Part shown: piece by piece, positions 1 through 53,111 of the stretch
Layout: the number at the start of each line of letters is the position of its first letter
How positions within the stretch are numbered: position 1 is the first letter of the stretch
Origin: Reichenbachiella ulvae
Lineage (GTDB): Bacteria > Bacteroidota > Bacteroidia > Cytophagales > Cyclobacteriaceae
Direction: 5' to 3'
DNA length: 64,000 nt
Assembly: GCF_025833875.1 (NCBI RefSeq)
Contig: NZ_JAOYOD010000001.1
Location: forward strand, 5,243,501-5,307,500
Translations under genes and position numbers: made by a program
Notes under the pieces: generated by a model
What the model was told of the DNA's origin: nothing
The model's database searches: none
The model's input: only the letters and a program-made list of their open reading frames with translations

Positions 1-227
1 TTTGGGTTGCGGATGATCAGAAAAGTAACGACAAGTTTATCGCTCTTTTTAATGTCTCAGATAAAGTACAGGATGTTTTCTTTGATCTGGAATGGGAAAT
101 GATACGAGGAAAGTTTGAAGTCAAGGATTTGTGGACGAATAAAGACATTCAATTAGTCAAGGATCGAATTAAGGTCGAGCTTGGTCCGCATGAAGGTACC
201 TTGTTGAGGGTGTCCGAAATGAAATAA
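1..227 (+). CDS. C-terminal end of a GH27-like alpha-galactosidase (partial)
   Basis: Only the last 74 codons are present, read in the frame that starts at base 3 and stops with TAA at 225-227. The translation has the look of the C-terminal beta-sandwich of GH27 enzymes: ALFNVSD near the start, then VKDLWTNKDI, then LGPHEGTLLRV before the stop. The complete GH27 at 4601-5920 ends in the same way (AVFNISDSD, IRDLWKKEDL, IPAHGAMMLRI), so the two are paralogues at least in this domain. The catalytic barrel lies outside the window, so activity cannot be judged. A strong terminator follows at 241-281, separating this gene from the regulator at 294. Confidence 0.7.
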   Translation, partial: WVADDQKSNDKFIALFNVSDKVQDVFFDLEWEMIRGKFEVKDLWTNKDIQLVKDRIKVELGPHEGTLLRVSEMK

Positions 228-240
228 CAGTGAATTGAAA

Positions 241-281
241 AATCCAACCCACTCTCTCTATGGGTTGGATTTTGTATTTTT
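241..281 (+). terminator. Rho-independent terminator after the partial GH27
   Basis: Perfect 10-bp stem AATCCAACCC (241-250) / GGGTTGGATT (262-271), 11-base loop, followed by a T-rich tract to 281. It ends the upstream transcript just before the HTCS gene. Confidence 0.8.
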
Positions 282-282: not shown

Positions 283-293
283 GAAAGACTAAA

Positions 294-3200
294 ATGAAAA
301 GACTACTTACAATATTTATACTAGGATTATTGCCTCTGATTCATTCTGAGGCAAAGGATATCAATTATTATTTTAGACACATCACCGCCGAAGATGGGTT
401 GGCTCATACGGATGCAACTGATTTAGTTCAGGACAGGTTTGGGTTTGTTTGGATTGCTACCTTCGGTGGCTTGCAGCGATATGATGGTAATGGCCTGCAA
501 TTGTTTTGGAATGATGAAAATCAATTAAATGCCGTCTTTAATAATCGTATCAAAGGACTTCATCTTGGTGAGAATGATTTGCTGTGGTTGTCCACAGAAG
601 GTGGGGTTAAATTATTTGATACAAAAATCAATCAATTTATTAGACTTAAATCAAATGGCAGGGCTGCCAGCGACCTGCTTTCCAGTTCGTGTAGGGATAT
701 TGTGCAAGGGACGGATGGGGCAATTTATGCATTGTTAGAATCTGGACTTTATCGCATGAGTATTCAAGGCGATGTGTTAAAAACATTCACCCCATTGTAT
801 AATATTGATTTGAGACAATCCTATATAGGAGAGATTATTGAAGTAAACGGGGATTTGTGGGTTGTTCATACTTCGGGCGTTTTGATGGTTAAGAAGAATC
901 GTCTAAATGAGCGAAATGGAGCAGTAAAAATAGAGTTAAGTGATAGACGAACTGAAAAGAGTTTTTTTGCATTTCATTCCATTACACAAGTAGATGATAG
1001 CACTTTGCTTTTTGGTTGTAATAACGGGTTTATTGAGGTAAACCTGGCCCAGTCTTTTGGTAATGGTAAGATTTTGGGTAATTATCACAAATTATCTCTG
1101 GATCCATCTACCGGCCAGTATATTGATGTGACAAAGATTATTTGCTATGACAAAAATGAGTATTGGATTGGTACCAATGAAGGTTTAATTTCTGTCAAGA
1201 GTGTTAACGGAGAATATCAAGAGTCTTATTATCAAAATTCGGAATATGATAAAAATTCACTCACCTCCAATCATATCAATTCACTTTGGATAGACGATAT
1301 GGATCATCTTTGGATTACTACCTTCAGCGGTGGAGTTAATTTTATTAATCTTAATCAGAAACAATTTTCCATATTGAATAGGGATCCTTCTCAATTAGAA
1401 AATACTTTGGCTGAAAATTTTGTACGCGCTATTACAAGCGATGCTGCGGGGAATATGTGGCTTGGAACCTGGTCCAAGGGGCTAAATAAGTACAATCCGA
1501 AGACCAATACTTATACACTCTATTCCAAGGAGAGTAAGGACTTTTCACAAGACAAAATCAGAGCACTTGAAATTGATCATGAAGGCCGCTTATGGGTAGG
1601 TACTAATCAGGGACTTTATGTGAAACGACCCTATGTTGATGATTTTATTCCTATCAACTATAGTAATTCCGACATACAAGGGTCATCTTTTTACTGCTTA
1701 GGGGTTGATTATTTTGGACAGGTATGGGCTGGAAGTTGGAATGGAAAAGGATTGAATAGAATTAACTATATCAATGAAAAGGCATTAAAGGTTGAGGTTT
1801 TCAATACCTCTAATAGCAGCATTTGTTCAGATAAAATTACCTATATCTATGCAGACCCTAACTACCCTCAAGTTTTTATTGGGACGAATCAAGGTATGAA
1901 TCACATTTTGTTAAATGATGATGGCCAAGTGAAGAGTGTCTTTCAATACAAGGGGTATGAAGGGGATAGGACGTCTTTGAGCTCTAATTTTGTTTGGCCA
2001 ATAGTTAAGACCAATGATTCTACATTATGGGTTGGAACCCTAGGTGGTGGGCTCAATAAGCTGATCATCAAAGGTGACGGTAGGTATAGAGCTAAACATT
2101 TTGGGCCGGATGAAGGAGCCCCTTCTAGTGATATTGAGTCTCTGGAGTTAGATAAAAATGGGAATCTTTGGTTAGGTACTAAAGGGCTTTCCAAGTTCAA
2201 TCCAGAGACAGAGACCTTTACTAATTATGATTACAATGATGGACTGCAAGGCAATAGCTTCAAAATAGGATCATCTTATGCTGCACCAGATGGTACGTTA
2301 TATTTTGGAGGAATCAATGGTGTAAGTTATTTCAATCCAGATAGTATCACTAAAAGCAGTTTTGCACCAGAAGTAGTTTTTACAGATCTCTATATCAATG
2401 GACAGAAGATTGCTCCTAATGATTCTTTGAATGAAAATACATTATTATCTAAAAATATCTATTTAACAGATAAGCTGATATTGAATTATGATCAGAACAA
2501 TGTGAGTATTTCATTTTCTTCCATGCAATATTCTAACCCTCAAAAGTCAAGGTATAAGTACATGCTAAAGGGTGTCGATAGGGATTGGAACATTACACAA
2601 AATGCAGGTGAAAATACTGCAGCTTATCAAAACTTGGATCATGGAAGTTATGAATTTGCGGTAGTAGGATCAAATGGAGATGGAGTCTGGGGCGAGAAGG
2701 TTTCATCGGTTTTAATTGAAGTTACTCCTCCCATTTGGAAGACGTTTTGGGCTAAAGTCATCTATTTTATAATTATTACAGGTGCATTGGTATTTGTGTT
2801 TTACTCCCAGAGGAGATGGCTAAAACTAAAACGGGATTTGGAGTTTACTATACTTGAAGAACAAAAGATGGAAGAGATTCATAAAATGAGAATGAAATTC
2901 TTTACTAATATTTCTCATGAATTTCGAACTCCCTTGACGTTGATTCTGAATCCAATTGAAATGCTAATGTCCAAGTCCGTGCAAAATGAGACTATGGATA
3001 AGTTGCATAAAACGATATTCAATAATGCCAATCGACTTTTGAGCCTAATTAATGAGCTGATGGATTTCAGGAAAGCGGAAACCGGTGCTCAAGAGATCAA
3101 AGTGGCTAATGATGACATCCATGCAGTATTGAACAATATTACCTCTGGTTTTGATAACCTAGCTGATAAGAAAAATATTAACTATCAAACAAGAATTCGA

Positions 3201-4526
3201 TTGGCGGAGGTTGATGATTTTTGGTTCGACCAGGGAGTGATAGAAAAAATTGTACTTAACCTGATCTCCAATGCTTTTAGATATACGGAAAATGGAAGCA
3301 TATCAATCGAGGCAGGTACTGATCCTCTAATGATCCAAAGTACGCTACAGAATCATTTTGCAGTCCAGTCGGAAGAGAGATTTAACGAGTATCTTTATAT
3401 TAAAGTCAGTGATACTGGTATTGGAATTACTAATGCCTCCATCAAGAATATTTTTGATCGATATTTTAGGATTTCTGATGATAATAGTCAGCATTTGGGG
3501 TCAGGTGTTGGTCTAGCATTGGTTAGAAGCTTGGTTTTACTTCATAAAGGAGATGTGATTGTGAGGAGTGAACGAAGAGTAGGGAGTGAATTTGTAGTTT
3601 GCCTACCATTAGGTAAAGAACCATATAGCACCGAAGAGATCATCGATAGTAGTCTAGTTAAAAAATTAGATCATGTCATAACTCGAGAAGAATCCATCGA
3701 TTTTCAGGAAGAGGACCAATATGAGGATGAAAATGGGATTGATGAAAGCAAAACTAGAGTGCTCCTAGTAGAAGACAATCAAGAGTTGCTGTCCTTTCTC
3801 AAGGATTGTTTCAATGAAACATATCATATAATGAGTGCTTCTAATGGGGAAGAGGCCTTAGGTAAAGTACACGAAACAGCACCTGATATTATCATTAGCG
3901 ATATCATGATGCCGGTCATGGATGGTTTGACCTTTTGCCAAACACTCAAGTCAGATATTAATTATTCTCACATTCCAGTCGTCTTGTTAACGGCAAAGTC
4001 TGCTGATGAGAGCAAGATAAAAGGGGTGGAAACGGGTGCAGATGCTTATTTAACGAAACCGTTCAATTTAACCCTGCTCCAGAAAACAGTAGAAAACATC
4101 TTAGATAATCGTAACAAACTAAAAGATCGATATCGAAACGATACGTTCATTGAGGAGCGAGAGATGGTCAGTAACAAGAAGGATCAGGAGTTTATGGATC
4201 AATTGATTGAGATTGTTAACGTCAAGATGAATGATCCAGCCTTTGATATTGATCACTTATGTCTCGAAATGGGTAATAGCCGAACCAAACTCTATAACAA
4301 AATCAAGAGTTTGACTGGTTTGTCTGTAGGGGAATTTATCAGAAGAATGAGGATGAAAAAGTCTGCTGAAATCCTACTTAAAGAACAAATATCAGTATCC
4401 GAAGTAATGGTAAAGGTTGGGATTCAAAGTCAATCCTATTTCACCAAAACTTTTAAGAAAGAGTTTGGGGTGACACCAGCCCAATATAAAAATTCGGTGG
4501 AGAAGGAAGGAGAAACTGTTAATTAG
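294..4526 (+). CDS. Hybrid two-component system sensor/regulator (HTCS)
   Basis: A 1410-residue one-protein sensor and regulator typical of Bacteroidota PULs. Visible order: signal peptide (about 1-20); a long periplasmic double beta-propeller of reg_prop repeats with recurring LW(I/L)GT-type strands (to about 700); a Y_Y_Y domain (about 740-805); one membrane segment (about 815-835). Then come a HisKA domain with FTNISHEFRTPL and phospho-acceptor His875, a HATPase domain with DTGIGI and GSGVGLAL, a receiver domain with IISDIMMPVMDG (Asp1203), and a C-terminal AraC-type double HTH ending in the FTKTFKKEFGVTPAQY motif. The family binds an oligosaccharide in the periplasm and activates nearby PUL operons. 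It is paralogous to the HTCS at 22785. It stands alone, with a terminator on each side. Confidence 0.95.
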   Translation: MKRLLTIFILGLLPLIHSEAKDINYYFRHITAEDGLAHTDATDLVQDRFGFVWIATFGGLQRYDGNGLQLFWNDENQLNAVFNNRIKGLHLGENDLLWLSTEGGVKLFDTKINQFIRLKSNGRAASDLLSSSCRDIVQGTDGAIYALLESGLYRMSIQGDVLKTFTPLYNIDLRQSYIGEIIEVNGDLWVVHTSGVLMVKKNRLNERNGAVKIELSDRRTEKSFFAFHSITQVDDSTLLFGCNNGFIEVNLAQSFGNGKILGNYHKLSLDPSTGQYIDVTKIICYDKNEYWIGTNEGLISVKSVNGEYQESYYQNSEYDKNSLTSNHINSLWIDDMDHLWITTFSGGVNFINLNQKQFSILNRDPSQLENTLAENFVRAITSDAAGNMWLGTWSKGLNKYNPKTNTYTLYSKESKDFSQDKIRALEIDHEGRLWVGTNQGLYVKRPYVDDFIPINYSNSDIQGSSFYCLGVDYFGQVWAGSWNGKGLNRINYINEKALKVEVFNTSNSSICSDKITYIYADPNYPQVFIGTNQGMNHILLNDDGQVKSVFQYKGYEGDRTSLSSNFVWPIVKTNDSTLWVGTLGGGLNKLIIKGDGRYRAKHFGPDEGAPSSDIESLELDKNGNLWLGTKGLSKFNPETETFTNYDYNDGLQGNSFKIGSSYAAPDGTLYFGGINGVSYFNPDSITKSSFAPEVVFTDLYINGQKIAPNDSLNENTLLSKNIYLTDKLILNYDQNNVSISFSSMQYSNPQKSRYKYMLKGVDRDWNITQNAGENTAAYQNLDHGSYEFAVVGSNGDGVWGEKVSSVLIEVTPPIWKTFWAKVIYFIIITGALVFVFYSQRRWLKLKRDLEFTILEEQKMEEIHKMRMKFFTNISHEFRTPLTLILNPIEMLMSKSVQNETMDKLHKTIFNNANRLLSLINELMDFRKAETGAQEIKVANDDIHAVLNNITSGFDNLADKKNINYQTRIRLAEVDDFWFDQGVIEKIVLNLISNAFRYTENGSISIEAGTDPLMIQSTLQNHFAVQSEERFNEYLYIKVSDTGIGITNASIKNIFDRYFRISDDNSQHLGSGVGLALVRSLVLLHKGDVIVRSERRVGSEFVVCLPLGKEPYSTEEIIDSSLVKKLDHVITREESIDFQEEDQYEDENGIDESKTRVLLVEDNQELLSFLKDCFNETYHIMSASNGEEALGKVHETAPDIIISDIMMPVMDGLTFCQTLKSDINYSHIPVVLLTAKSADESKIKGVETGADAYLTKPFNLTLLQKTVENILDNRNKLKDRYRNDTFIEEREMVSNKKDQEFMDQLIEIVNVKMNDPAFDIDHLCLEMGNSRTKLYNKIKSLTGLSVGEFIRRMRMKKSAEILLKEQISVSEVMVKVGIQSQSYFTKTFKKEFGVTPAQYKNSVEKEGETVN

Positions 4527-4600: not shown

Positions 4601-5920
4601 TTATCTTATTCTAAGCATCATGGCTCCATGAGCAGGAATGTCCAATTGTAATGAGTTCCTGTTGGTTATCAGATCTTCTTTCTTCCAAAGGTCTCGAATA
4701 GCATTGAACGAATCGATTCCTAGCTCAGCTATATTAACATGAAAGCTTTGGTCGGAATCACTGATGTTGAATACGGCTAGTACGGTGTCTCCATCCAGTG
4801 TTGCTGTCCAGACGATTTTCTTCTCATCTTTCCATACCTGTTTTCCCCCCTTACTTTTTTGATTGACTTCTAGTACTTCTCCATTGGAGATCAATTCGAT
4901 AGTGAAATCATCACATTCTGGTAAGTTGCCACCAAACATCAGTGGAGATCGGAATATACACCAAAGTGTCATTAGAGTGATTTGCTCCTCTTGAGTAAAG
5001 TTGGTGCTTCGGTTTTGGCCACCAGATTCACCGCGAGGCATATAGCCTAGAGGTAGCATATCTGCATCTGGCCAGTGGTTTTCGGTCACGAAAGGAGCCC
5101 AATTGGCACATCTTTCCATTTGCTTGAGCAATGATCCCCAGTGATCCCAAAAGTCAGCTGAGATTCTCCAGAGGTTGGCATGGTTGCGGAGGTGATTGAT
5201 GATGGTTGTCTCTGGCCCTCCTGGAGAGATGCTTAGTACCATGGGATGTCCACAGCCATCTATGGCTTTTCTGATCCCTTCGATATCGTCTATGCGGTAG
5301 GGACTGCCTACTCCTGTGGGTGATCCATCACTATTTTCTACCTCGTGCCAGGCATTGACGTCATCTGCTTTGATGTAGTCTACATCCCATGAGGCATATA
5401 GCTCGAAAATGGAGTCATAGTATTTTTGAGCACCTTCGTGAGCAAAATTTAGCGTTCGTAAGCTATTGTACCATGGACATTTCTCTTTGTCATAGGAGAT
5501 GTCTTGAGCTTTGAATTCAGTTCCTTTGATGGGCGTGTTTTGCTGCACAGCTTGCACAGGAATCCCGCGCATGATATGGATGCCAAATTTCAATCCCAGG
5601 CCATGGATGTAATCTGCCAAAGGCTTGAATCCTTTTCCACCAGCGGAGGAAGGGAATTTCTCAGGGTCAGGAATCAATCGACCATATCCGTCGATCAGTT
5701 GATCAATGTTCACGTTTTTGTAAGTCTCGTGGGTGGCCCCTGGAGCAAACCAGGCCAGATCTACGATCACATATTCCCAGCCATAGGGCTTTAAGTTCTT
5801 GGCAATGAAGTCTGCATTTTGTTTTACTTCTTTTTCGGTGACAGTCACCGAAAAACAATCCCAGCTATTCCATCCCATAGGAGGGGTTGGGGCGATATTG
5901 TGAAGTGTTGTATTACTCAT
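4601..5920 (-). CDS. GH27 alpha-galactosidase / beta-L-arabinopyranosidase family enzyme
   Basis: A 439-residue GH27-type protein. The N-terminal PPMGWNSWDCF (about 14-23) is the family signature. The expected nucleophile is Asp186 in YIKADD. The expected acid/base is Asp256 in WRISADFWDHW, which aligns with the RNFADIDDSW region of human alpha-galactosidase A. The C-terminal beta-sandwich runs from about 350 to 439. Oddly, the DDCW motif that contacts the galactose hydroxyls reads D54-L55-A56-W57, so the second Asp is lost; this argues for an altered glycone such as L-arabinopyranose or a 6-modified galactose (inference). No signal peptide is evident, so it may act in the cytoplasm on imported sugar, in line with its place in a leftward operon behind a symporter. 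Confidence 0.88.
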   Translation of the reverse strand: MSNTTLHNIAPTPPMGWNSWDCFSVTVTEKEVKQNADFIAKNLKPYGWEYVIVDLAWFAPGATHETYKNVNIDQLIDGYGRLIPDPEKFPSSAGGKGFKPLADYIHGLGLKFGIHIMRGIPVQAVQQNTPIKGTEFKAQDISYDKEKCPWYNSLRTLNFAHEGAQKYYDSIFELYASWDVDYIKADDVNAWHEVENSDGSPTGVGSPYRIDDIEGIRKAIDGCGHPMVLSISPGGPETTIINHLRNHANLWRISADFWDHWGSLLKQMERCANWAPFVTENHWPDADMLPLGYMPRGESGGQNRSTNFTQEEQITLMTLWCIFRSPLMFGGNLPECDDFTIELISNGEVLEVNQKSKGGKQVWKDEKKIVWTATLDGDTVLAVFNISDSDQSFHVNIAELGIDSFNAIRDLWKKEDLITNRNSLQLDIPAHGAMMLRIR

Positions 5921-5940
5921 AATTGTTGTCGATATTTTTT

Positions 5941-5965
5941 AATGAGTGCCTTTTTAGCACTATTT
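5941..5965. promoter_or_regulatory. Copy of the TGAGYGC repeat motif, upstream of GH27
   Basis: AATGAGTGCCTTTTTAGCAC at 5941-5960 matches, with two differences over 21 bases, the sequence at 9178-9198 upstream of the sulfatase gene. The core AGTGC/GCACT can form a small hairpin. It lies 20 bases upstream of the GH27 start, in the gap between symporter and GH27. Possible operator or processing site. Confidence 0.4.
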
Positions 5966-5976
5966 ATTATTTACTA

Positions 5977-7749
5977 TTAGAGAATGACGGAGAATAGCAA
6001 AACCATAAACAGCATCAGAAAGATGCTGAGACCTGACCATAGTGGTACGCCAGTGTACCATTTGTTGCCCAGTCCACCACCGAAATTTTTGGTTTTGAAG
6101 TTGAAAGTCAGATCATCTGATACTTGCTCGGGTGCAGGAGCTGCTGTTAACACCGCAGAGATACTACATACTGCCATCGATACGATCCATGACAGCAAGG
6201 CTTGATTGGCGAATGGTACCAGGATGCCTTTCCAAAATGTAGCATTTGCACTCAGTTCCTCTCCAGCAAATACAGTGAATTCTAAAATCTTCAGCACTGC
6301 AGAGAATGCAAAAGAGATCAATACCGTATTCATGGCATCTTTTCCACTTACTTTTCTCCAGAGCATTCCCAGTAAGAAGATTGCGGAGAAAGGTGGCGCG
6401 ATGAAATTGTATAAGGCTTGAATGAAAACAAAAAGATTGACCTTAGTAGCAACAGCCAAAACAATTGCAATCCCAATGGAGGCAAATAAGATGACGATTC
6501 CCATTACTTTTCCTAATCTGACCTGTCCTTGATCGTCCAGCTGAGGGTTGATCATTTCTTTATGAATATCCATGACATACATGGTAGAGGTACTGTTCAG
6601 CACAGAGCTAACAGTACTTTGGATAGCTCCGAACAAGGCTGCTAACAAAACTCCCCTAAGGAATGTCGGTACCAATTGGCCAATCATCACAATATAGGTG
6701 TTGTTGGCTTCATCACTCATCAAACCCCAGTCCCCACTCAGAAGGAATTCAGGCTTCATCGCAAAGTAGATCATGCCAGGGATCACCACGATGAAGGGGA
6801 GTAGCAACTTTAGGAAAGAAGCAAAGACCATCCCCATACGGGCATGATACATGTCCTTAGCGGCAAATACCTTCTGGATCATGTGCTGATTGATCACGGT
6901 GTACCATAGACCAATGTAAAAGAAGCTGAAGACCCAATGCGTCCAGGGATTTGTATAGTGGTTGAGAGGTTGTAATACAGATAATCGTTCGTAGTTGTCA
7001 CCTGGCTCAGAGCCTTTGAGGATGTTGACCACATTTTGGTCGATCCAGTCTTGGACCCAAGCTACTTTGCCTGCATTGATGTCTATCATGTTTTGGAATC
7101 CGGCAATCATCCCTTCTCCATCACCCAAAGCTGACAGTCCCAGAAAAGTAACCGCCAGTCCACCACCAACCATGATGATAATGGTGAGCACGTCCATAAA
7201 AGCCACCGATTTTAGACCTCCGATGATGGCCCAGATACCTGCAGTGATACCAATGATGAAACAGCTCAATACTTTGTCCATCCCAAAGAAATTGTTGAGA
7301 ATCAGAGATCCTCCATAGATCACAGGCCCCATGAAGGCCACTACATTGGCAATGATTGATAAGATGGCGAAAAAGTGTCTCAATTTCTTGCTAAAGCGCT
7401 TTTCGAGGAACTCAGGAGCTGTGTAAACATTCGAGGACAGTAGAAATGGTATGAATATCCAGATCAAAAAAGTGAAGGCTATCACGGTGCTCCATTCGCC
7501 CGTGGCAACTGAGATACCATAGATTACAGCCGCACCTATCAGACCAATAAAATGTTCAGTACTGATATTGGCAGCAATGTAAGAGCTACCTACGACATAC
7601 CATGGTAAGGTTTTTCCAGCAAGGAAGTAGTCTGCGGCATCAGTACTTTTCTTCTTGCCACTGATATAGCCAATAAGGCTCAACAATATGAAATAACCAA
7701 AAAAGGCCACATAGTCTGCAAAGTGTAGTTCGAATGATGTGATTTCCAT
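5977..7749 (-). CDS. Sodium:solute symporter (SSS family), sugar uptake
   Basis: A 590-residue inner-membrane protein with about 13-14 hydrophobic segments and the SLC5/SSS family layout. The N-terminal GYFILLSLIGYISGKKKS.DAADYFLAGKTLPWYVVG is the family opening, followed by SYIAANISTEHFIG, the usual SSS sodium-site region. It is related to SGLT-like sugar symporters often found in PULs. It is the middle gene of a leftward operon: 13 bases separate it from the lipoprotein gene upstream (stop at 7763) and 56 bases from GH27 downstream (start at 5920). This suggests uptake of the monosaccharide released by the neighbouring hydrolases. The ligand cannot be read from sequence. Confidence 0.93.
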   Translation of the reverse strand: MEITSFELHFADYVAFFGYFILLSLIGYISGKKKSTDAADYFLAGKTLPWYVVGSSYIAANISTEHFIGLIGAAVIYGISVATGEWSTVIAFTFLIWIFIPFLLSSNVYTAPEFLEKRFSKKLRHFFAILSIIANVVAFMGPVIYGGSLILNNFFGMDKVLSCFIIGITAGIWAIIGGLKSVAFMDVLTIIIMVGGGLAVTFLGLSALGDGEGMIAGFQNMIDINAGKVAWVQDWIDQNVVNILKGSEPGDNYERLSVLQPLNHYTNPWTHWVFSFFYIGLWYTVINQHMIQKVFAAKDMYHARMGMVFASFLKLLLPFIVVIPGMIYFAMKPEFLLSGDWGLMSDEANNTYIVMIGQLVPTFLRGVLLAALFGAIQSTVSSVLNSTSTMYVMDIHKEMINPQLDDQGQVRLGKVMGIVILFASIGIAIVLAVATKVNLFVFIQALYNFIAPPFSAIFLLGMLWRKVSGKDAMNTVLISFAFSAVLKILEFTVFAGEELSANATFWKGILVPFANQALLSWIVSMAVCSISAVLTAAPAPEQVSDDLTFNFKTKNFGGGLGNKWYTGVPLWSGLSIFLMLFMVLLFSVIL

Positions 7750-7762
7750 AGTCTATTTATTC

Positions 7763-44448: not shown

Positions 44449-45517
44449 ATTAAGAACAACTATAGGAATAATGGCTGTGTCACTGATGGCATGCCATCCC
44501 AATATTCAATCAAAGGAAAAAAAAGATGTTGAGCAGCTACCCGTTGAGGTGATGCAACACAAAAAAGCTATTCATCCAATTGATGATTGGATGAGAGATC
44601 CTTTTATCACTCTGGGTCCAGATAGTCGTTACTATATGACCATGACTCAGCAAAAGAATGAGGAAGGTGATGATTTGATGCCAGTATACGTAAGTGATGA
44701 CCTTTGGAATTGGGAGAAAATAGGATTTCCCTATTCCATCAGAAAGGCTAGCAATGCAGAGGAGTTTGAGGCAAGACTAGCTGAGAAGAACGAAGAACGT
44801 GACGACCCCATGCCTATGAGACTATGGGCACCCGAAATGCACTGGGTAGATGATCACTGGGTCTACATCCATACCTCCAATACAGGTTTAGGCAATTTGA
44901 TCCAGACAAAAGGTACAGATTTGTTTGAGCTAAAAAGCCAATGGGGGAGCAATTTTCGGCGAAAGCATGACCCTTTTTTATTTCAGGACGATGATGGAAG
45001 CAAATATCTGGTCTATAAATGCACAGAGATAGTGAAGTTGAAAGATGACCTATCAGGTACTGATGGAGAGCCTGTACAAATCGGTCCTTCGAACCGAAAA
45101 ATGGGACATGAGGGTGCATTCATTATCAAATACAAAGGAAAGTATGTGCTATTCGGTACAGCATGGTCGACTGACGAAATGCGTCATGGTACTTATAATC
45201 TATACTACTGCACATCTGACAATCTAATGGGTCCCTATGGTGAGAGGAAGTTTGCCGGTCGTTTTCTTGGACATGGTACTTTGTTTCTAGATAAGCAGGA
45301 CCGCTGGTGGTGTACGGCATTCTACAATGCCAACAAACCACCAATTAGCCCTCAGGAGGCAAAAACTGGAGACCAAAGTGACACTGCCTATACCATCAAT
45401 AAACAAGGCTTAACTCTGGTGCCTATGGAGATCAAAATGGAAAATGGTGAAGTGATCATCAGACCTAAAGATCCAGATTATGGGTACCCTGGAAAGGAAG
45501 AGGTTCAACAGTTTTAG
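44429..45517 (+). CDS. GH43-type glycoside hydrolase, lipoprotein
   Basis: A 362-residue protein whose start overlaps the GH2 stop by 20 bases; Met4 (base 44438) is an equally good start, still overlapping. Lipobox SLMAC (Cys21 from the first Met). The propeller has DDWMRDPFITLGPDSRYYMTMT (base Asp), LWAPEMHWVDDHWVYIHTSNT, KHDPFLFQDDDGSKYLVYK (second Asp) and GHEGAFIIKYKGKYVLFGTAWS (acid Glu). The triad looks intact. The overlap suggests translational coupling with GH2, so the two probably work together on the same oligosaccharide. Confidence 0.87.
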   Translation: MLEMRNRLRTTIGIMAVSLMACHPNIQSKEKKDVEQLPVEVMQHKKAIHPIDDWMRDPFITLGPDSRYYMTMTQQKNEEGDDLMPVYVSDDLWNWEKIGFPYSIRKASNAEEFEARLAEKNEERDDPMPMRLWAPEMHWVDDHWVYIHTSNTGLGNLIQTKGTDLFELKSQWGSNFRRKHDPFLFQDDDGSKYLVYKCTEIVKLKDDLSGTDGEPVQIGPSNRKMGHEGAFIIKYKGKYVLFGTAWSTDEMRHGTYNLYYCTSDNLMGPYGERKFAGRFLGHGTLFLDKQDRWWCTAFYNANKPPISPQEAKTGDQSDTAYTINKQGLTLVPMEIKMENGEVIIRPKDPDYGYPGKEEVQQF

Positions 45518-45525
45518 TAAGTATT

Positions 45526-47400
45526 GTGAAGGAAATGAAAGGAATATATACAACAGTTTTTTTAGTTATGTTTAGTCTGATTGCGAAGGCACAGTCCATA
45601 GATGGTTTGGCTGTCTATGACTGGCCCACGCAAGAAGGAGAAGCATATCTGTCCAAGAACTACAAGGTGACTCTATCACAAAATGGAATTGTAATTGATT
45701 CTAAAGTGATTTATTCAGAAGGTAGGGATGAAGATATTGGGGATTGGGCTTCTCAGTTTAAGGGAGATCGTACTTTTAATTGGACAATGTTTTCCTATAA
45801 TTTTTCGAGCCCACTTACAATCACTGTTGAGAAATTATTTGGTGAAGCGGCAAGTGAGGTAGAAGTTTTTCCTTCTCCCTTTGAAGTAGAACCCATACTA
45901 TCTAATGATGGCTTGAAGGTAGAGTTTGTGTTGGATCAGCCTCGATATGTCTCGGTCAATTTTCTTTCAGATGATAATAAGCATACGAGTGATGGTGTGA
46001 TCAAGCATATGATGATGGTCTTTGCCGAAATGGAAGAAACCATAGTCCCAGATAAGAACAGTCCTGCGGTTCATGTCTACAGCGCCAGTTCTACATTGGC
46101 TCAGTTACAAGATGCCAATGTGATTTATTTTCCTGTTGGATTCCACGATCTACGGGATGTAATGGATGATTTTGGTAATCTTGGACCTGCAATAAACAAA
46201 GTAGGAAAGCAAGTGTATTTCGAGGGAGGTGCTTATGTACATGGACGTATCACAGGTGTTAGTGGTGAAAATGTGAAGATCTACGGACGAGGTGTTTTGA
46301 CTGGTCGTGAATACATTTGGAAAGAAACCTTTGCTCCCAATCAGGCACACATTGGAGTGGGCTACAATAATGGAGGTTACAATACCGTAGAAGGTATCAT
46401 TGTGTGTGATGGCGCTGGACATGGAGTCAATTTAGGTCATCATGCCACCTATCAAAATTTGAAATATTGGGGCTGGCATCCTAATAATGATGGCGCTCGT
46501 CCTTGGGGTACGGACAATAAGATTGATCAATGTTTCTTTCGTAGCTGCGACGATGCTTTGTACAACAAAGGCCTGACTGTGACAGAAACTGTTTTTTGGC
46601 CAGGATTCAATGGATCTATTCTTTGTATGGGCTGGGACGGGAAATACCATACGGAAAACTCTACGCTGATAGACAATTACGTGATATACCCTGAATGGAG
46701 GAAAATTGGGAATAATCATGGGATCTTGATGTCCCAAATCGATTACGATATGAATGGCACAAATGTCACTATCAAAAACCTGCATGTAGATGGCAATATT
46801 ACAGCATTGGTTAATTTGAAAAATAACACTCGAAAGACAACTGAAGGTGTTTATGAGTTGGGGACAGATTATACGGGTACAGTAGGGAATGTTTCAGGCT
46901 TGCATCTTGAAAATATCACAGTCACAGGTGGACAGCTACAGTTTATTGGAGATGCGTATGAACAAGAAATTAGTCCTAGTTTGAGTCTGATAGAAGGAAC
47001 CCAATTGAGTAATGGAGATGTCTATTATTTTGAGGAAATTCTTTTCAAAAATGTAGTGATCGATGGGGTGCTCCTTACTGAAGACAATAAAGATGATTAT
47101 TTTACTATTGATCCTGAGACTACCAGGAATATCTCTTTTGAAGAAGGGGAGGCCGAAAAAGAGGAAGAAATTTTATCTCTTATTAATACTAAGGGATATA
47201 AATATATACTCTATCCCAATCCTACCACACAATTGATAAATTACGATGAAGCAGAATCTGATACTAATTATCAAGTATGGACTACCTCAGGTCAATTGAT
47301 CTTAAAAGGTCAAGGCAAGAAGGTCGATGTGCAACACCTTAAAAGTGGTATTTATCTTTTTCGAACCCAAGGACAAGTTTTTCGCTTTGTAAAAGAGTAA
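45526..47400 (+). CDS. Secreted beta-helix glycoside hydrolase (GH49/GH28-like) with T9SS domain
   Basis: A 624-residue protein; Met4 (MKGIYTTVFL) is an alternative start. Signal peptide ends near IAKAQ. The N-terminal beta-sandwich (about 25-165) opens VYDWPTQEGEAYLSKNYKV, like that of the 37111 protein. The parallel beta-helix (about 185-545) has NNDGARPWGTD (about 320-330), SCDDALYNKG (about 341-350) and FNGSILCMGWDG (about 361-372), the shared acidic fingerprint. A type IX secretion C-terminal domain covers about 560-624 (YILYPNPTTQLINY). It starts 8 bases after the GH43-type gene and closes the GH43-GH2-GH43-beta-helix operon, so its product is probably the endo-acting partner of those exo-enzymes. 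Confidence 0.82.
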   Translation: MKEMKGIYTTVFLVMFSLIAKAQSIDGLAVYDWPTQEGEAYLSKNYKVTLSQNGIVIDSKVIYSEGRDEDIGDWASQFKGDRTFNWTMFSYNFSSPLTITVEKLFGEAASEVEVFPSPFEVEPILSNDGLKVEFVLDQPRYVSVNFLSDDNKHTSDGVIKHMMMVFAEMEETIVPDKNSPAVHVYSASSTLAQLQDANVIYFPVGFHDLRDVMDDFGNLGPAINKVGKQVYFEGGAYVHGRITGVSGENVKIYGRGVLTGREYIWKETFAPNQAHIGVGYNNGGYNTVEGIIVCDGAGHGVNLGHHATYQNLKYWGWHPNNDGARPWGTDNKIDQCFFRSCDDALYNKGLTVTETVFWPGFNGSILCMGWDGKYHTENSTLIDNYVIYPEWRKIGNNHGILMSQIDYDMNGTNVTIKNLHVDGNITALVNLKNNTRKTTEGVYELGTDYTGTVGNVSGLHLENITVTGGQLQFIGDAYEQEISPSLSLIEGTQLSNGDVYYFEEILFKNVVIDGVLLTEDNKDDYFTIDPETTRNISFEEGEAEKEEEILSLINTKGYKYILYPNPTTQLINYDEAESDTNYQVWTTSGQLILKGQGKKVDVQHLKSGIYLFRTQGQVFRFVKE

Positions 47401-47997: not shown

Positions 47998-49548
47998 TTA
48001 TTTTAGGCTCACTCTGGGTGTATTGCTGATTCGATAGTTTCTGGCATTCTCAAATTCTTCATTGATGCATCTATCGCCCCAGCGGGAGATCATGTGTTTA
48101 AGAGAGAAAATGTTTTGAGGTTCAGCTCCTTTGTCTCCGTAAGTATTTGTCCATTCGGTCAGTATATCACGATGCTCTTGTAGCACTTTTGCATATGCAG
48201 GATCTTCAGCCAGGTTATTAATCTCGTGTGGGTCGTTTTCTAGATCGAAAAGCTCCTCTACAGGCTTTGTGGGTTTCCAGTATTTAGCTTGGACTTCATT
48301 CAACTCTCCAGCCTCATAGGCTTTTTTAATGTCTACATATTCGGCTCTTCTGTCCCTGTACGCCGGTTGGGTATAGGATCTGTGAGGCATATAGTTTTTG
48401 ATGTATTTGAACTGATCCGTACGAATGGCTCTTATTCTATCGATGCTAAAATCACAGCGGTCTCTGGCTGCAACGATGTATTCCCGATTGAAGTCTGAGG
48501 CAAACATATCCATTCCTTCCATGTACGCGGGGATGTCTAATCCAGCAAGTTTTAAGCTAGTAGTACCAATATCGATTCCATTGACCAGATCTTCTCTGAT
48601 CTCACCTTTTTTGATCTTCCCACCTTCACCATAGTAGGCCACAATTAAAGGAATGTGAATTCCCCCATCATAAACAAACTGTTTGTGTCTGATGCCCTTA
48701 TATCCATGATCGGTAAAGAAAAATACATATGTGTTATTCAGGAGTCCTTTGGCTTTTAACTCCTCCATGATGCCACTTACTTCGATATCTGTCATCCTGG
48801 CCGCATCGTAATGTCTAGCCCAGTCTTCATGTACAGAGGGAAGGTTGGGGTAATACGGTGGTAGTTCAACCAGATTTCTATCGATGGGTTCGATGCCCAT
48901 TTTTTTCAGATTGTTGTCATAGGCCTGAACTAGTGAAAGCTTTCCACCATTAAGTTGCACTTGACCAAAGAAGGGTTTGTCGCTGGTTAGGGAATCCAAA
49001 TAGTTGCCCTTACCAGCAAAGGTGTACCAATAGTCTACTTTGATGGGGTCATTGTATAATTCCTTTCGGTTATAAACAAAGTTGTAATCGTCCTTACCAT
49101 GATTGAAAGTATAATATCCAGCTTTCTTGAAAATTTCGGGTATGGTTTTTACTCCTTCAGGAAGAAAAATAGCGTCTTCCATGGTTCTTGAGGAATGGTG
49201 ATTGTGCGTCCCAAAAGTGGTAGGCATGGTGCCAGTGATTATAGCTGATCGGGCAGACGAACATACAGGAGCAGGGGTGAAGGCTTTCTTGAATAGCACA
49301 CCGTTTTCTGCCAGCCCATCGATTACAGGAGTAGGGTTGATATCTACACCATAGCTACTGAAAAATGGATTCAAATCTTCTACATATATCCATAAAACAT
49401 TGGGGCGGTCAGGTTGTGTTTCGGTCTGCATGCTCGATACTGAGCTACAGTTGTTCCATAGGAGGCTCGCTGCTGCGAGTAATAGTACACTTATCTTCTT
49501 CATTCTTTTCATATTTACTCTCATCAAATCTAAAGGGGCTAATAACAT
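47998..49548 (-). CDS. Family S1 sulfatase (CSSAR type)
   Basis: A 516-residue frame. The better start is Met13 (base 49512; MKRMKKISVLLLAAASLLWNNC) giving a lipoprotein signal with Cys34. The core begins RPNVLWIYVEDLNPFFSSYG; the formylglycine signature is Cys96-S-S-A-R followed by SAIITGTMPTTFGTHNHHSSR, the form seen in S1_8/S1_11-like sulfatases, unlike the two CNASR sulfatases to the left. VFFFTDHGYKGIRHKQFVYDGGIHIPL and WKPTKPVEELFDLENDPHEINNLA complete the family pattern. Probably periplasmic desulfation of PUL oligosaccharides. It is a single-gene leftward unit between two rightward operons. Confidence 0.92.
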   Translation of the reverse strand: MLLAPLDLMRVNMKRMKKISVLLLAAASLLWNNCSSVSSMQTETQPDRPNVLWIYVEDLNPFFSSYGVDINPTPVIDGLAENGVLFKKAFTPAPVCSSARSAIITGTMPTTFGTHNHHSSRTMEDAIFLPEGVKTIPEIFKKAGYYTFNHGKDDYNFVYNRKELYNDPIKVDYWYTFAGKGNYLDSLTSDKPFFGQVQLNGGKLSLVQAYDNNLKKMGIEPIDRNLVELPPYYPNLPSVHEDWARHYDAARMTDIEVSGIMEELKAKGLLNNTYVFFFTDHGYKGIRHKQFVYDGGIHIPLIVAYYGEGGKIKKGEIREDLVNGIDIGTTSLKLAGLDIPAYMEGMDMFASDFNREYIVAARDRCDFSIDRIRAIRTDQFKYIKNYMPHRSYTQPAYRDRRAEYVDIKKAYEAGELNEVQAKYWKPTKPVEELFDLENDPHEINNLAEDPAYAKVLQEHRDILTEWTNTYGDKGAEPQNIFSLKHMISRWGDRCINEEFENARNYRISNTPRVSLK

Positions 49549-49663: not shown

Positions 49664-50722
49664 ATGGTCATTTTTGAAGCTATGAGATGGAAGATGATTT
49701 TTGGGTTTGCTTTTCTTGTGAGTTCTTGTATTCCGACGAAGGATGGAAATCAGTATTTTCAGACTTGGCAGAATCCGATTTTGGATGGAATTAATCCATA
49801 TGGAATGAAAGATTTCTTTGTGTGGTCAGAAGAGGATGCATATTATCTAGTCGGCTCTGAATATTCAGATCCATTTGATGAGCAAACGAAAGGACCATAC
49901 CTATATAGCGCAAAGAATTTTGCCCAATGGGAAAAGGGAAAAGCCTTGATCGATCATGATCATATTGCTGATACAGCCTGGTACAGAGACGAGTGGCGCA
50001 TGCCAGAAATCATCCGGATTCAGAATAAATATTATCTCACATTCAATAGTAGAAATAATACCCTCAGACCTTACAAGAAGTATGGCTTTGGGCTTGCAAT
50101 TTCGGATAAGCTGGAGGGACCGTATGAAGTAATCAACAAGTCCGCACCGTTGGCCTGGACTAACCATGGTACAATAGTAGAAGCCAAGGATGGGAGTCAT
50201 TATCTCTACTATGATATGGACGGTCGATTCTACATCGCTGCAGTAGATGTGGCCGCAGCTCAATTGCTTTCAGAGCCAAAGGAGATTCTTGGGCCAGATT
50301 CATTAGGGGATGTCTACAAATATCTAGATGCTCCTCAAATCACCAGAGTTGAGGATGATTATCATATGCTTTTCAGTCAGTTTTATGGAGGTTATGTGAT
50401 CAGAGTTTTTCATATGATTGCTAATGATGCCATGGGCCCCTGGATTATGGCCAATAATGATCCTATATATACTTTTTTGGAAGCTGAGGCGGATCTGGAA
50501 GTAAAGATGGAGTATCCTGAGTCACACGGTTTCGCACCGCCTACCCAAGTTGTGTTTAGTAATCAATTATTCAAAGGTTTGGATGGTCAGTATTATATCG
50601 CCTATCACAGCTCAGAAAAATATTCTGAACCTTATCTCTGTATCGAACCAACAAGTATCGTGTCAGATAGCCTTGTAATTTGGAATCCCAAAAGTGAGAA
50701 TCAAACATCGGTCAAAGAATGA
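49664..50722 (+). CDS. GH43-like beta-propeller protein with altered catalytic residues
   Basis: A 352-residue frame. Met7 (base 49682) gives the best lipoprotein signal, MRWKMIFGFAFLVSSC. The propeller resembles GH43: INPYGMKDFFVWSEEDAYYLVGS, WRMPEIIRIQNKYYLTFNSR, GFGLAISDKLEGPYEV. However, the place of the second Asp reads WTNHGTIVEAKDGSHYLYYD (no Asp-Pro), and the acid Glu position reads YKYLDAPQITRVEDDYHMLF, where the usual E is D or absent. It may therefore be a diverged GH43/GH117-type enzyme or a non-catalytic binding protein. Its stop overlaps the ATG of the beta-helix gene (ATGA), pointing to translational coupling. Confidence 0.75.
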   Translation: MVIFEAMRWKMIFGFAFLVSSCIPTKDGNQYFQTWQNPILDGINPYGMKDFFVWSEEDAYYLVGSEYSDPFDEQTKGPYLYSAKNFAQWEKGKALIDHDHIADTAWYRDEWRMPEIIRIQNKYYLTFNSRNNTLRPYKKYGFGLAISDKLEGPYEVINKSAPLAWTNHGTIVEAKDGSHYLYYDMDGRFYIAAVDVAAAQLLSEPKEILGPDSLGDVYKYLDAPQITRVEDDYHMLFSQFYGGYVIRVFHMIANDAMGPWIMANNDPIYTFLEAEADLEVKMEYPESHGFAPPTQVVFSNQLFKGLDGQYYIAYHSSEKYSEPYLCIEPTSIVSDSLVIWNPKSENQTSVKE

Positions 50723-52104
50723 AAAGAATTGTTTTATATATTGCTATGCTCTACTTGGTCGGACAGGCGCGGGCTCAACTCGTGACTTATCCTCCTGCTG
50801 AAAACATTACAAGGGAAAACCCCAATATCTATCCTTCTGAACAGTACATAGTGACTTTGGAGCAGGACGATAGGGTCATTCAGGATTTCGTGTATTGCAT
50901 GAGCAGTATGCATACTACCAATTATAGTGAAACTACCTCCTGGGTTAATTTCTCTTTCGAGGGAAAGGTAAAGGTCACGGTGGAATGTTTGCAGTCAAAA
51001 ATCGATTTTGCACAAATTCAACCGCTCAATAAGGAAGTAGAGCCAGCAATTTTGAGTGCAGGTAAAATAGAATTCCTGATCACTGAACCTGGACAATATT
51101 CTGTCGAATTTGAACAAGGATCTATCATTAAGCATCCACTGTTGATTTTTGCCAATCCGTTGGAAGAAATGGTGCCTGACAAAAGCGATGAACATGTCGT
51201 TTATTTCGGTCCGGGTTTTCATAAGATTGGAGATAGATTAGAGCTCAAAAGCGGGCAGCATTTATATTTGGCGGGAGGTGCGTATGTCAAGGGGCAGATC
51301 TATGCTGAAGATGTAGAGAATGTAAAAATCAGTGGGAGAGGCATAATATCCGGAGAGGATTATATGCCACGGACGCATGAGCATATGATACGAATGCGAA
51401 ATGCAAATCAACTGAAGGTAGAAGGGATCACTATGATTCATTCGCCCAGATACATGATTGCCATTAATGGGGACGATCACTACTTCAACAATATTAAAAT
51501 GATGGGTTGGTGGTTCAGTACAGACGGAATCTCAGCTGGCACAAATACTTTGATTGAGAACTGCTTCTTCAAAGTCAATGATGACGCTATCAAACTGTAT
51601 AAAAGCAACACAACTGTTAGGAAATGTGTGATTTGGCAAATGGAGAATGGTGCGCCATTTATGATCAGTTGGAATGGTAGGTCAGACTTTGGGGATTGTC
51701 ATGTGTATGATATTGATGTCATACGAGTGGAGCATCACTGGGACAACGAAAATTTGGCGGTGTTTTGTGCTGTGCATGGAGGGCAGGCAGATATAAGCAA
51801 TTTCTTGATCGAAGACATTCGCATATACAATTCAAAGTGGCGTATGTTTCATCTAGTCACCAGACCTAATCGATGGGGAAAGTGGAATCCTGACAAAGGT
51901 TCCTTGAGTGACTTTCATTTTAAGAATATTACTTATTTCGGATCTCAGCAAATTCCCAGTCTGATCATGGGGCACGATGAGTATCATCCCATTCATGATA
52001 TCCAATTTGAAAATATTATGATTGATGGTCAGGTTGTTCAATCTTTTAAAAGAGACCAGTTCATAGTTGATGAAGAGTTTACTCAAAACATTAGTATCAA
52101 ATGA
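50719..52104 (+). CDS. Secreted beta-helix glycoside hydrolase (GH49/GH28-like), compact form
   Basis: A 461-residue protein, signal peptide about 1-19 (GQARAQ), no extra modules and no type IX domain, so probably periplasmic. N-terminal beta-sandwich (about 20-145), beta-helix (about 155-455). Fingerprint: TDGISAGTN (about 268-276), NDDAIKLYKS (about 287-296), ENGAPFMISW (about 309-318). It is closest to the core of the 32246 protein (VYFGPGFHKI versus VYFGPGEHFI; DDAIKLY versus DDALKLY). It is the middle gene of a tightly coupled trio: four-base ATGA overlaps with both the GH43-like gene before it and the DUF1593 gene after it. Likely an exo- or oligosaccharide-acting member of the group. 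Confidence 0.82.
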   Translation: MKRIVLYIAMLYLVGQARAQLVTYPPAENITRENPNIYPSEQYIVTLEQDDRVIQDFVYCMSSMHTTNYSETTSWVNFSFEGKVKVTVECLQSKIDFAQIQPLNKEVEPAILSAGKIEFLITEPGQYSVEFEQGSIIKHPLLIFANPLEEMVPDKSDEHVVYFGPGFHKIGDRLELKSGQHLYLAGGAYVKGQIYAEDVENVKISGRGIISGEDYMPRTHEHMIRMRNANQLKVEGITMIHSPRYMIAINGDDHYFNNIKMMGWWFSTDGISAGTNTLIENCFFKVNDDAIKLYKSNTTVRKCVIWQMENGAPFMISWNGRSDFGDCHVYDIDVIRVEHHWDNENLAVFCAVHGGQADISNFLIEDIRIYNSKWRMFHLVTRPNRWGKWNPDKGSLSDFHFKNITYFGSQQIPSLIMGHDEYHPIHDIQFENIMIDGQVVQSFKRDQFIVDEEFTQNISIK

Positions 52105-53111
52105 GATTAGCCAGTTTTACCCTTGCATTCCTTTTTGCAGTGCAAATTGTATTAGCTCAAAAGCCTTCTGTATGGATTTATACAGATACTACTGATCCGA
52201 GTCTCCCGGGAAATAATCATATGGGTACCATCAATGATCCAGATGATGTTTCGGCCATGGCGGGTTATTTGCTCATGGCTAATATGTTTGATACTAAAGG
52301 AATAATAGTTGCCAGTACACATCGCGAAGAGCATGCTCATACTCCTGACCAGGGAGAGTGGGCTAACCGTTATTATGGGGATGCCTATCGAAAGGATGTT
52401 AATGGACTTAATGAAAATATCGGTGGTTACCCGACGAATATACAATTTACCGAGTCATCCATCAAAGTCACAGCAGAGAGGTTTGATCTCAAAGGCGATT
52501 ATCAATCATTGGACAAATACCCAACGGTACGGATGCTACTGGACTCGATGCTTACAACTGATCAAGTGATCCATGTGCTTTGCTGGGGTTCTTTGACTGA
52601 GCCTGCAATATTGGTAAAGCATCTTATACAGACGAAACAAGTGCATTTATTTAATCAACTCAAATTTATTGCTCATTGGACCAACTCTAGCCTTCATCAA
52701 GGAACTCCCGAGCATCCAGAGCATGTGGCCAATTGCCGTGAAGATGCCACTGCTTGCGCATTCTTGAAGGAAATGGCCCTTAATGGTCATATCGAGTATT
52801 ACGAATGTGGAGCTATTGGCCAACATGGAATTGTGAGTGGAGGCCCAAAAGGCATGGAATATTTCGAACAGTTCAAAAGTAGTAGCCTTGGTAGAATGTT
52901 CGTTGAGGGGAAGTATGTACACAATGGAGTGGATCACTCAGATGCAGCTACTTATTGGGTTTTGTTAGGAGACTGGGGTGTTTCACTCTCAGATATCAAA
53001 TCGAACGGTGCCAATTTTCCAGACATGGAAAAAGCCAATCAAGAACGGTTTGCATTCTGGTCTCAGCGTATTCATGATGAGTTATTGAGAAGAGTGAAAC
53101 TTTGTTATTAA
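52101..53111 (+). CDS. DUF1593 / Sde182-type nucleoside-hydrolase-like protein
   Basis: A 336-residue secreted protein, signal peptide about 1-19 (VQIVLAQ). The N-terminal half has the nucleoside-hydrolase-like pattern of the DUF1593 (Sde0182 N-terminal) family: VWIYTDTTDPSLPGNNHMGTINDPDDVSAMAGYLLMANMFDTKGIIVAST, with clustered Asp residues that in true nucleoside hydrolases bind calcium and ribose. VIHVLCWGSLTEPAILVKHL matches the next family block, and HNGVDHSDAATYWVLLGDWG is the C-terminal acidic motif. The usual C-terminal Ig-like domain of Sde0182 is missing. It starts inside the stop of the beta-helix gene and is the last PUL gene. A furanoside or pentose hydrolase role is tempting but not shown. 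Confidence 0.78.
   Translation: MRLASFTLAFLFAVQIVLAQKPSVWIYTDTTDPSLPGNNHMGTINDPDDVSAMAGYLLMANMFDTKGIIVASTHREEHAHTPDQGEWANRYYGDAYRKDVNGLNENIGGYPTNIQFTESSIKVTAERFDLKGDYQSLDKYPTVRMLLDSMLTTDQVIHVLCWGSLTEPAILVKHLIQTKQVHLFNQLKFIAHWTNSSLHQGTPEHPEHVANCREDATACAFLKEMALNGHIEYYECGAIGQHGIVSGGPKGMEYFEQFKSSSLGRMFVEGKYVHNGVDHSDAATYWVLLGDWGVSLSDIKSNGANFPDMEKANQERFAFWSQRIHDELLRRVKLCY

Follow-up and report, generated by a model that had tools for sequence, protein, structure and literature searches.

Which glycan is degraded by the large, sulfatase-rich polysaccharide utilization locus (PUL) that enters the stretch of DNA analysed here, a 64,000-nucleotide window at C1:5243501-5307500 of a 5.56-Mb genome? The original prediction had seen no obvious known polysaccharide signature in it and had offered a sulfated galactan or arabinan as substrate, for instance an arabinogalactan or arabinopyranan from green algae. 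The first judgement was too pessimistic, because the specificity residues of the GH27 enzymes and a linkage to L-arabinose genes point to beta-L-arabinopyranose (beta-L-Arap). The second can be narrowed: an arabinose polymer with beta-L-Arap, and not a plain galactan, is favoured by the GH27 residues, by the presence of the L-arabinose isomerase gene araA in or beside five of nine loci (ours and eight relatives in other Bacteroidota), and by a xylose control. Read from sequence, the substrate is probably a sulfated L-arabinose polymer with beta-L-Arap in its chain. We lean towards a single PUL for a sulfated, branched polysaccharide predicted to be rich in beta-L-Arap. That the substrate is a sulfated glycan we hold with little doubt; L-arabinose would, with only slightly less assurance, be a main product, and a backbone of beta-L-Arap appears somewhat probable.

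The locus is about twice as long as its first description, which ran from position 1 to 53111. The gene content described there is real, and a reading of 80 kb upstream places the start of the PUL near C1:5199736, about 43.8 kb before the window, for a total of about 97 kb of which the window holds the downstream 53 kb. SusC/SusD pairs, carbohydrate-active enzymes and dedicated regulators recognised by Pfam mark it as a PUL. In all it encodes eight sulfatases, three GH27, seven GH43, seven beta-helix proteins, four SusC/D pairs and two hybrid two-component system (HTCS) regulators. Five of the sulfatases and two each of the GH43, the beta-helix proteins and the SusC/D pairs belong to the upstream part, which adds a propeller sensor with chemotaxis output. 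The formylglycine motif of S1 sulfatases, C-x-[PSA]-x-R, is present in all eight. As far as Pfam shows, the original picture of a large sulfatase-rich PUL without the usual algal hallmarks holds: depolymerases typical of agar, carrageenan, alginate, ulvan, laminarin or fucoidan loci are absent from the matches of the genes scanned, 27 in the window and 20 of 25 open reading frames (ORFs) upstream of it, families without a Pfam model escaping such a scan.

The GH27 proteins bear on the sugar released. Two had been counted in the window; only one is complete there, the other being the tail of a gene that stops at 227, and the upstream part of the locus holds a third:

4601..5920, minus strand: GH27a, predicted beta-L-arabinopyranosidase (Pfam; PDB 4nx0, Abp, E 6.9e-135); no signal peptide by eye, perhaps cytosolic
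1..227, plus strand: 3' end of GH27c, whose gene starts 1227 bases upstream of the window; 42% to GH27a (5.2e-84), relatives of 53-59% in seven of the eight other loci
C1:5242273: GH27c, named by similarity or motif
C1:5239167: GH27b

The PDB ranking of GH27a is led by Geobacillus Abp (4nx0), followed by 3cc1 (1.2e-120), an entry deposited under the name of putative alpha-N-acetylgalactosaminidase that carries the same Ile as Abp; alpha-galactosidases come next, none better than 1.7e-30. At the specificity position our alignments place Asp in alpha-galactosidases, Ile in Abp and Leu in GH27a; the catalytic Asps are aligned with those of Abp, and the GH27a nucleophile falls on the position occupied by Ala in 4nxk. 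In the literature, drawn on here and throughout in excerpt, an Asp at this position goes with alpha-galactosidases and an Ile or Glu with beta-L-arabinopyranosidases (PMC4598101), and a Tyr-bearing GH27 hydrolysed p-nitrophenyl (pNP)-beta-L-Arap (100) and not pNP-alpha-Gal (<0.1) (PMC5853685). GH27a-c have Leu or Tyr. Across 17 GH27 from this locus and those of seven related organisms the residue is Tyr in nine, Phe in six, Leu in two and Asp in none, and two further GH27 on a Persicobacter plasmid carry Tyr and Leu. The nucleophile and the acid/base Asp, whose residue numbers we take to be D197 and D255, are kept in 17 of 17. By their similarity to Abp and their specificity residues, the locus GH27 are predicted to be beta-L-arabinopyranosidases. 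They share family, catalytic Asps and a bulky specificity residue with GsAbp, CpArap27 and the plant enzyme APSE (4nx0; PMC4598101, PMC5853685), and differ in having Leu, Tyr or Phe at a position that is Ile in GsAbp and CpArap27 and Tyr in APSE. Leu and Phe fall outside the residues documented in the excerpts of those two papers (Ile, Glu, Tyr), according to which further residues or loops also matter for GH27 specificity.

The eight other loci, which came from a pattern scan and plasmid searches and are not a random sample, were compared with ours using 51 of our genes as queries and reciprocal best hits of at least 40% identity as the criterion:

Lutibacter sp. HS1-25: 27 of 51 genes
Flavobacterium flevense DSM 1076: 27 of 51
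Leeuwenhoekiella parthenopeia: 26 of 51
Persicobacter sp. JZB09 plasmid 5: 24 of 51
Arundinibacter roseus: 13 of 51
Allomuricauda metagenome-assembled genome (MAG), on two contigs: 12 of 51
Chitinophagaceae MAG: 10 of 51
Flavobacterium sp. SUN052: 8 of 51

Two control stretches with other PULs, both shorter (35 and 40 kb), shared 0 of 51, so the grouping of 8-27 genes in each of eight loci is not due to chance. The most conserved markers are the beta-helix protein BH5 and GH43a, found in all eight; GH27c, two upstream sulfatases (uSulf2, uSulf5), GH43b and GH43e recur in seven, GH43c and GH2 in six, and each locus has at least one Abp-like GH27. Lutibacter, F. flevense and Leeuwenhoekiella keep the upstream tandem of SusC/D pairs (uSusC3/D3, uSusC4/D4), and the Persicobacter plasmid keeps part of it. 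For the SusC/D pairs of the window, both HTCS, BH1 and sulfatase A no such partners were found, a result that speaks against regarding the whole window as a single conserved unit. Of 11 genomes with a BH5 relative of at least 49%, 10 encode an Abp-like GH27, the exception being a 2.5-Mb MAG; in a phylum sample that includes our own genome the figure is 28 of 395. Sorted by locus, 11 of 23 pattern-scan loci have such a BH5 relative (GH27 in 10) and 12 do not (GH27 in four); for seven of the 11 the GH27 criterion was a blastp match at 1e-40 to one or more of the three GH27, slightly wider than for the rest. The locus is rare, since BH5 matched none of 397 genomes of one other family (1e-60) and six of 395 phylum genomes (1e-30), among which only our own holds a close relative.

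Comparison of these loci also brings in L-arabinose catabolism. In Lutibacter, genes for ribulokinase, ribulose-phosphate epimerase, a sodium:solute symporter (SSF) and araA end 114 bases before one of the GH27 genes of the locus, and the encoded L-arabinose isomerase scores 829.7 bits against the cut-off of 622 for the NCBIfam equivalog NF002795. Arundinibacter has araB, araA, araD, talC and an SSF gene between GH2 and the sulfatase-GH27c pair; araB, araD, araA and SSF adjoin SusC/D in the Chitinophagaceae MAG; the Allomuricauda MAG has araA and SSF next to a sulfatase and GH27; and the Persicobacter plasmid carries araB, araD, transketolase and SSF at one end of its locus and araA at the other. 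In F. flevense a transketolase gene lies inside the locus and araA on another contig. The control sugar, xylose, behaved differently: xylA is at none of the nine loci and not on the plasmid, yet is present in eight of eight genomes, contig breaks in F. flevense, SUN052 and the MAGs being able to hide linkage of araA and xylA alike. The chance of araA linkage in four of eight loci, computed before the plasmid locus was known, is about 9e-6 under the assumptions of random placement and rough spans.

Candidates for cutting the chain itself are the beta-helix proteins. The five originally recognised in the window are confirmed, and two more lie upstream:

32246..35191, plus strand: BH1, GH49-like beta-helix with ricin-type lectin, CBM6 and a type IX secretion system (T9SS)-type tail (Pfam; PDB 1ogm 8.2e-12; catalytic Asps)
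35252..36817, minus strand: BH2, divergent beta-helix lipoprotein (PDB 6nzs 1.1e-4; D...DD kept; lipobox)
37111..39531, plus strand: BH3, GH49-like beta-helix with a T9SS tail above the TIGR04183 cut-off; a 63-64% relative in Lutibacter
45526..47400, plus strand: BH4, GH49-like beta-helix with T9SS tail (PDB and profile similarity, Asps, NCBIfam tail)
50719..52104, plus strand: BH5, GH49-like beta-helix; relatives of 53-62% in all eight other loci; the profile it leads matches PDB GH49 at 5.6e-49
C1:5208028: BH6, beta-helix
C1:5215009: BH7, beta-helix named by similarity or motif; T9SS-type tail by motif

As single sequences, the catalytic domains find dextranases as their best PDB matches (BH1 8.2e-12, BH4 5.3e-5, BH2 1.1e-4, BH3 0.0054). 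A profile of 16 sequences (A3: BH5 and eleven relatives, BH1, BH3, BH4 and BH7) matches dextranase 6nzs at 5.6e-49, isopullulanase at 1.8e-36 and dextranase 1ogm at 1.6e-34, and only then an exo-polygalacturonosidase at 2.7e-8. A single Asp followed some 20 residues later by a pair (D...DD) is invariant in all seven locus proteins; in profile A3 these residues align with their counterparts in 6nzs and 1wmr, presumably the GH49 catalytic Asps. The F. flevense BH5 is already labelled 'Glycosyl hydrolase family 49' in one source, and relatives are called GH28 in others. Because of their T9SS-type tails (above the NCBIfam cut-off in BH3 and BH4, below Pfam's in BH1, by motif in BH7), BH1, BH3, BH4 and BH7 are probably secreted. 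Profile similarity to GH49 dextranase and isopullulanase (6nzs, 1ogm, 1wmr) extends over much of the N-terminal and beta-helix parts, with three aligned Asps; those enzymes belong to an alpha-glucan context, whereas our locus is sulfatase-rich and arabinose-linked. We put the chance that the GH49-like proteins are endo-beta-L-arabinopyranases at a little under even.

Algal walls offer polymers of this kind. The walls of Cladophorales and of some Bryopsidales contain sulfated pyranosic beta-L-arabinans, some of which are anticoagulant (PMC7550628). In Codium the beta-L-Arap is 3-linked, with sulfate on C4 or on C2 and C4; in Cladophora it is 4-linked, with sulfate on C3 and C2 and stubs of beta-D-xylopyranose and beta-D-galactofuranose (PMC7550628). 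A similar polymer is described from a freshwater Cladophora (PMC5694217). Because beta-L-Arap has the C1-C4 configuration of alpha-D-galactopyranose (PMC7550628), beta-helix hydrolases of alpha-linkages would suit such a backbone. The locus matches this chemistry in its alpha-linkage-type GH27 and GH49-like enzymes, its many sulfatases, its GH43 with a beta-xylosidase-type C2 domain and its occurrence in F. flevense, a freshwater species, among others. The closest described polymer is the xylogalactoarabinan of Cladophorales, the 3-linked beta-L-arabinans of Codium also coming into question; a Cladophora-type source is a tentative guess from chemistry.

HTCS propeller sensors detect oligosaccharides, and those of this locus would do so at the start of the pathway that we propose. 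GH49-like proteins would then cut the backbone, with BH1, BH3, BH4 and BH7 acting outside the cell by virtue of their T9SS-type tails, and the SusC/D pairs, judged by family, would import the fragments. Sulfatases, GH43 (two with a beta-xylosidase-type GH43_C2 domain), GH2 and other enzymes would strip sulfate and stubs. L-arabinose would be released by GH27b and GH27c outside the cytoplasm and by GH27a, which has no visible signal peptide and sits beside an SSF importer, the specificity of all three being predicted from residues. AraA, AraB and AraD, whose genes are in or beside the locus in several relatives, would turn L-arabinose into pentose phosphate. The furthest-reaching form of this proposal, that the GH49-like proteins are endo-beta-L-arabinopyranases of sulfated pyranosic arabinans and that the conserved gene set would be a complete green-algal xylogalactoarabinan pathway spread among Bacteroidota, we advance as a conjecture that falls short of an even chance. 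Among the matches listed in our literature search, which mostly left subscription papers outside, there was no backbone-cutting enzyme or assigned PUL for these arabinans. The locus offers a short gene list, and it has relatives in two strains known by name, F. flevense DSM 1076 and Lutibacter sp. HS1-25; if the conjecture is true, it would yield tools for sequencing these polysaccharides and reveal which organisms recycle algal biomass of this kind.

Several observations weigh against this reading, and some of them fit another substrate, a type II arabinogalactan carrying sulfate, such as the arabinogalactan protein of Codium. There beta-L-Arap would only terminate side chains, and GH43 and GH2 would act on galactan and L-arabinofuranose. 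Linkage to araA was not seen in four of the nine loci (our own, F. flevense, Leeuwenhoekiella and SUN052); our araA is at C1:114282, away from the locus, and Arundinibacter has a second araA elsewhere in its genome. No locus enzyme scanned met an NCBIfam equivalog cut-off. A Maribacter arabinogalactan PUL holds arabinose genes (PMC11036162), so araA linkage fits arabinogalactan too, and GH27 beta-L-arabinopyranosidases also serve arabinogalactan use (PMC4598101); a beta-L-Arap backbone therefore follows from neither. For the B. plebeius loci that work on sulfated arabinogalactan, GH2, GH27, GH43 and a sulfatase are named, and these loci, PUL13 above all, resemble ours in SusC/D, sulfatase and GH families suited to arabinose and galactose and in acting, as we propose for ours, on an algal polymer, there one of Codium (PMC8406133). 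The excerpt highlights one S1_8 sulfatase there, against eight sulfatases, seven beta-helix proteins and three GH27 in our case and araA linkage in five of the nine loci. The arabinogalactan PULs 1, 7 and 8 of Maribacter sp. MAR_2009_72, likewise from a marine Bacteroidota, share GH43 and, in PUL 8, arabinose catabolic genes, but the paper, as excerpted, states that GH27 and GH28 are absent and gives one sulfatase in PUL 7 (PMC11036162). On a beta-1,3/1,6-galactan backbone, moreover, three GH27 and seven beta-helix proteins with the Asps of alpha-linkage hydrolases would have no obvious job. NCBIfam gave no match to GH43_24 exo-beta-1,3-galactanase for the GH43 scanned, GH43 subfamilies being without assignment. 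On balance we consider arabinogalactan an unlikely substrate.

Two or more adjoining PULs for different glycans, such as a sulfated arabinan and a sulfated galactan or xylan, are less likely still. Four SusC/D pairs and two HTCS within 97 kb would suit that arrangement, as would the lack of reciprocal relatives at 40% in the eight other loci for SusC1/D1, SusC2/D2, both HTCS, BH1, sulfatase A and both surface lipoproteins of the window, on account of which part of the window may serve another glycan. Relatives from both halves (uSusC3, GH27c, GH43b, GH43c, GH2, BH5) nevertheless share single loci in Lutibacter, F. flevense, Leeuwenhoekiella and the Persicobacter plasmid. The candidate backbone enzymes have difficulties of their own. 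The T9SS-tailed beta-helix proteins vary between loci, and conservation lies with others: at 40% or more, the sole reciprocal relative of BH3 is in Lutibacter, those of BH4 and BH7 are confined to the Persicobacter plasmid, and BH1 has none. Two of the seven are GH49-like only remotely; BH2 matches GH49 weakly, and the PDB comparison covered BH1 to BH5 and BH7. The activity named for GH49 in the excerpt of PMC10316084 is dextranase, and with dextranases and isopullulanase as best PDB matches the beta-helix proteins could be taken for ordinary alpha-glucanases aimed at dextran or another alpha-glucan. A neutral glucan would leave the eight sulfatases, the three beta-L-arabinopyranosidase-like GH27 and the araA linkage of relatives unexplained, and we regard this explanation as highly improbable. 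A sulfated polymer rich in beta-L-Arap is the reading we retain.

The remaining genes of the locus within the window are as follows:

294..4526, plus strand: HTCS1, hybrid two-component regulator (Pfam)
5977..7749, minus strand: SSF sodium:solute symporter, possible arabinose/arabinoside importer (Pfam); relatives (60-65%) next to GH27a both in F. flevense and on the Persicobacter plasmid
7763..9043, minus strand: lipoprotein (by eye) with a short GHL15 match at residues 347-381 (Pfam); on the Persicobacter plasmid a relative (62%) next to SSF and GH27a
9261..10886, plus strand: sulfatase A (Pfam; motif CNASR)
11020..12813, plus strand: DUF5060 + Collagen_bind_2 protein (Pfam)
12920..13909, plus strand: GH43a (Pfam); relatives in all eight other loci
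14218..17349, plus strand: SusC1, TonB-dependent transporter (Pfam); no reciprocal relative of at least 40% in the eight
17363..19108, plus strand: SusD1 (Pfam)
19127..19732, plus strand: lipoprotein with PKD-like domain (Pfam; lipobox)
19747..21117, plus strand: lipoprotein, perhaps glycan binding (no Pfam match; lipobox)
21331..22764, plus strand: sulfatase B (Pfam; motif CNASR)
22785..27047, plus strand: HTCS2, hybrid two-component regulator (Pfam)
27330..30317, plus strand: SusC2 (Pfam)
30336..31892, plus strand: SusD2 (Pfam)
39605..40795, minus strand: GH43b, lipoprotein (Pfam); 60-70% in seven of the eight
41128..42609, plus strand: GH43c (Pfam); in six of the eight
42622..44448, plus strand: GH2 (Pfam); 60-64% in six of the eight
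44429..45517, plus strand: GH43d, lipoprotein (Pfam; PDB matches are GH43)
47998..49548, minus strand: sulfatase C (Pfam; motif CSSAR); 60-68% in five of the eight
49664..50722, plus strand: GH43e, lipoprotein adjoining BH5 (Pfam); in seven of the eight
52101..53111, plus strand: Sde182/DUF1593 nucleoside-hydrolase-like protein (Pfam); 53-62% in five of the eight

Within 294-53111, Pfam bears out the two HTCS, two SusC/D pairs, three sulfatases, five GH43 and one GH2 of the original prediction, together with its DUF5060 protein (11020, with Collagen_bind_2 in addition) and its Sde182/DUF1593 protein (52101); its TIM-barrel lipoprotein is the protein at 7763, and the SSF symporter at 5977-7749 was missing from its list. 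The block of GH27a, SSF and GHL15-match lipoprotein (4601-9043) recurs on the Persicobacter plasmid at 66%, 60% and 62%, and GH27a also has an SSF neighbour in F. flevense. The DUF1593 protein is kept in five of eight related loci and may therefore be an unrecognised furanosidase, for instance one acting on galactofuranose stubs. Relatives of the DUF5060 protein were found at 66-69% in Lutibacter and Leeuwenhoekiella, at 42-43% in Arundinibacter and SUN052, and not in the other four loci; attempts to name it by sequence gave chance fascin matches only. A beta-helix identity for the protein at 19747 was rejected on account of its lipobox and the lack of a Pfam match. A GH117 (agar) identity was rejected for GH43d and GH43e, which had no GH117-labelled PDB match at E <=0.1, and the polymer could not be named through GH43 and GH2 NCBIfam equivalogs, whose cut-off was never reached.

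Upstream of the window, in C1 coordinates, lie the following; the ORFs at 5202847, 5210620, 5215009, 5222484 and 5242273 were outside the Pfam scan, and all except 5210620 are named by sequence similarity or motif:

5199736: sulfatase
5201328: GH43 + GH43_C2
5202847: sulfatase
5204590: outer-membrane barrel
5207177: DUF1080-type protein
5209441: Kelch protein
5210620: small ORF
5211238-5214993: propeller sensor (Reg_prop, Y_Y_Y) fused to HAMP and a chemotaxis signalling (MCP) domain
5217333: sulfatase
5219322/5222484: SusC/D
5224295/5227303: SusC/D, the SusC with weak Pfam matches and named by its position before SusD and its relatives
5228985: lipoprotein
5230198: cadherin
5232255: DUF4380 protein
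5233741: ThuA protein
5234707: DUF1080-type protein
5235510: sulfatase
5236948: GH43 + GH43_C2
5240737: sulfatase

The Persicobacter sp. JZB09 version of the locus occupies about 74.8-190 kb of CP012863.1, a circular plasmid of 357,561 bp, with L-arabinose genes towards both ends; this copy suggests that the pathway can move between Bacteroidota. No habitat paper naming F. flevense or Arundinibacter was among the ten matches listed out of 721.

At its downstream edge the locus gives way to an AT-rich stretch with several short tandem repeats (window 53081-55455). Unrelated genes follow from 55513 on, encoding an AAA/DUF4143 ATPase, a molybdopterin oxidoreductase, an Ldh-type oxidoreductase, a Ppx/GppA phosphatase and a carboxyltransferase. 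An empty insertion site within the genus was sought and rejected: the flanking genes are both matched in eight of eight genus genomes, but lie hundreds of kb or more apart wherever they are on one contig. By its sequence the host is close to the genus Reichenbachiella: among matches that bear a name, the best for the Ldh-type oxidoreductase at 60086 is the protein of Reichenbachiella sp. 5M10, with 86% identity. The propeller-MCP sensor has several long relatives spanning both parts in our genome and in the genus, and may couple glycan sensing to movement.

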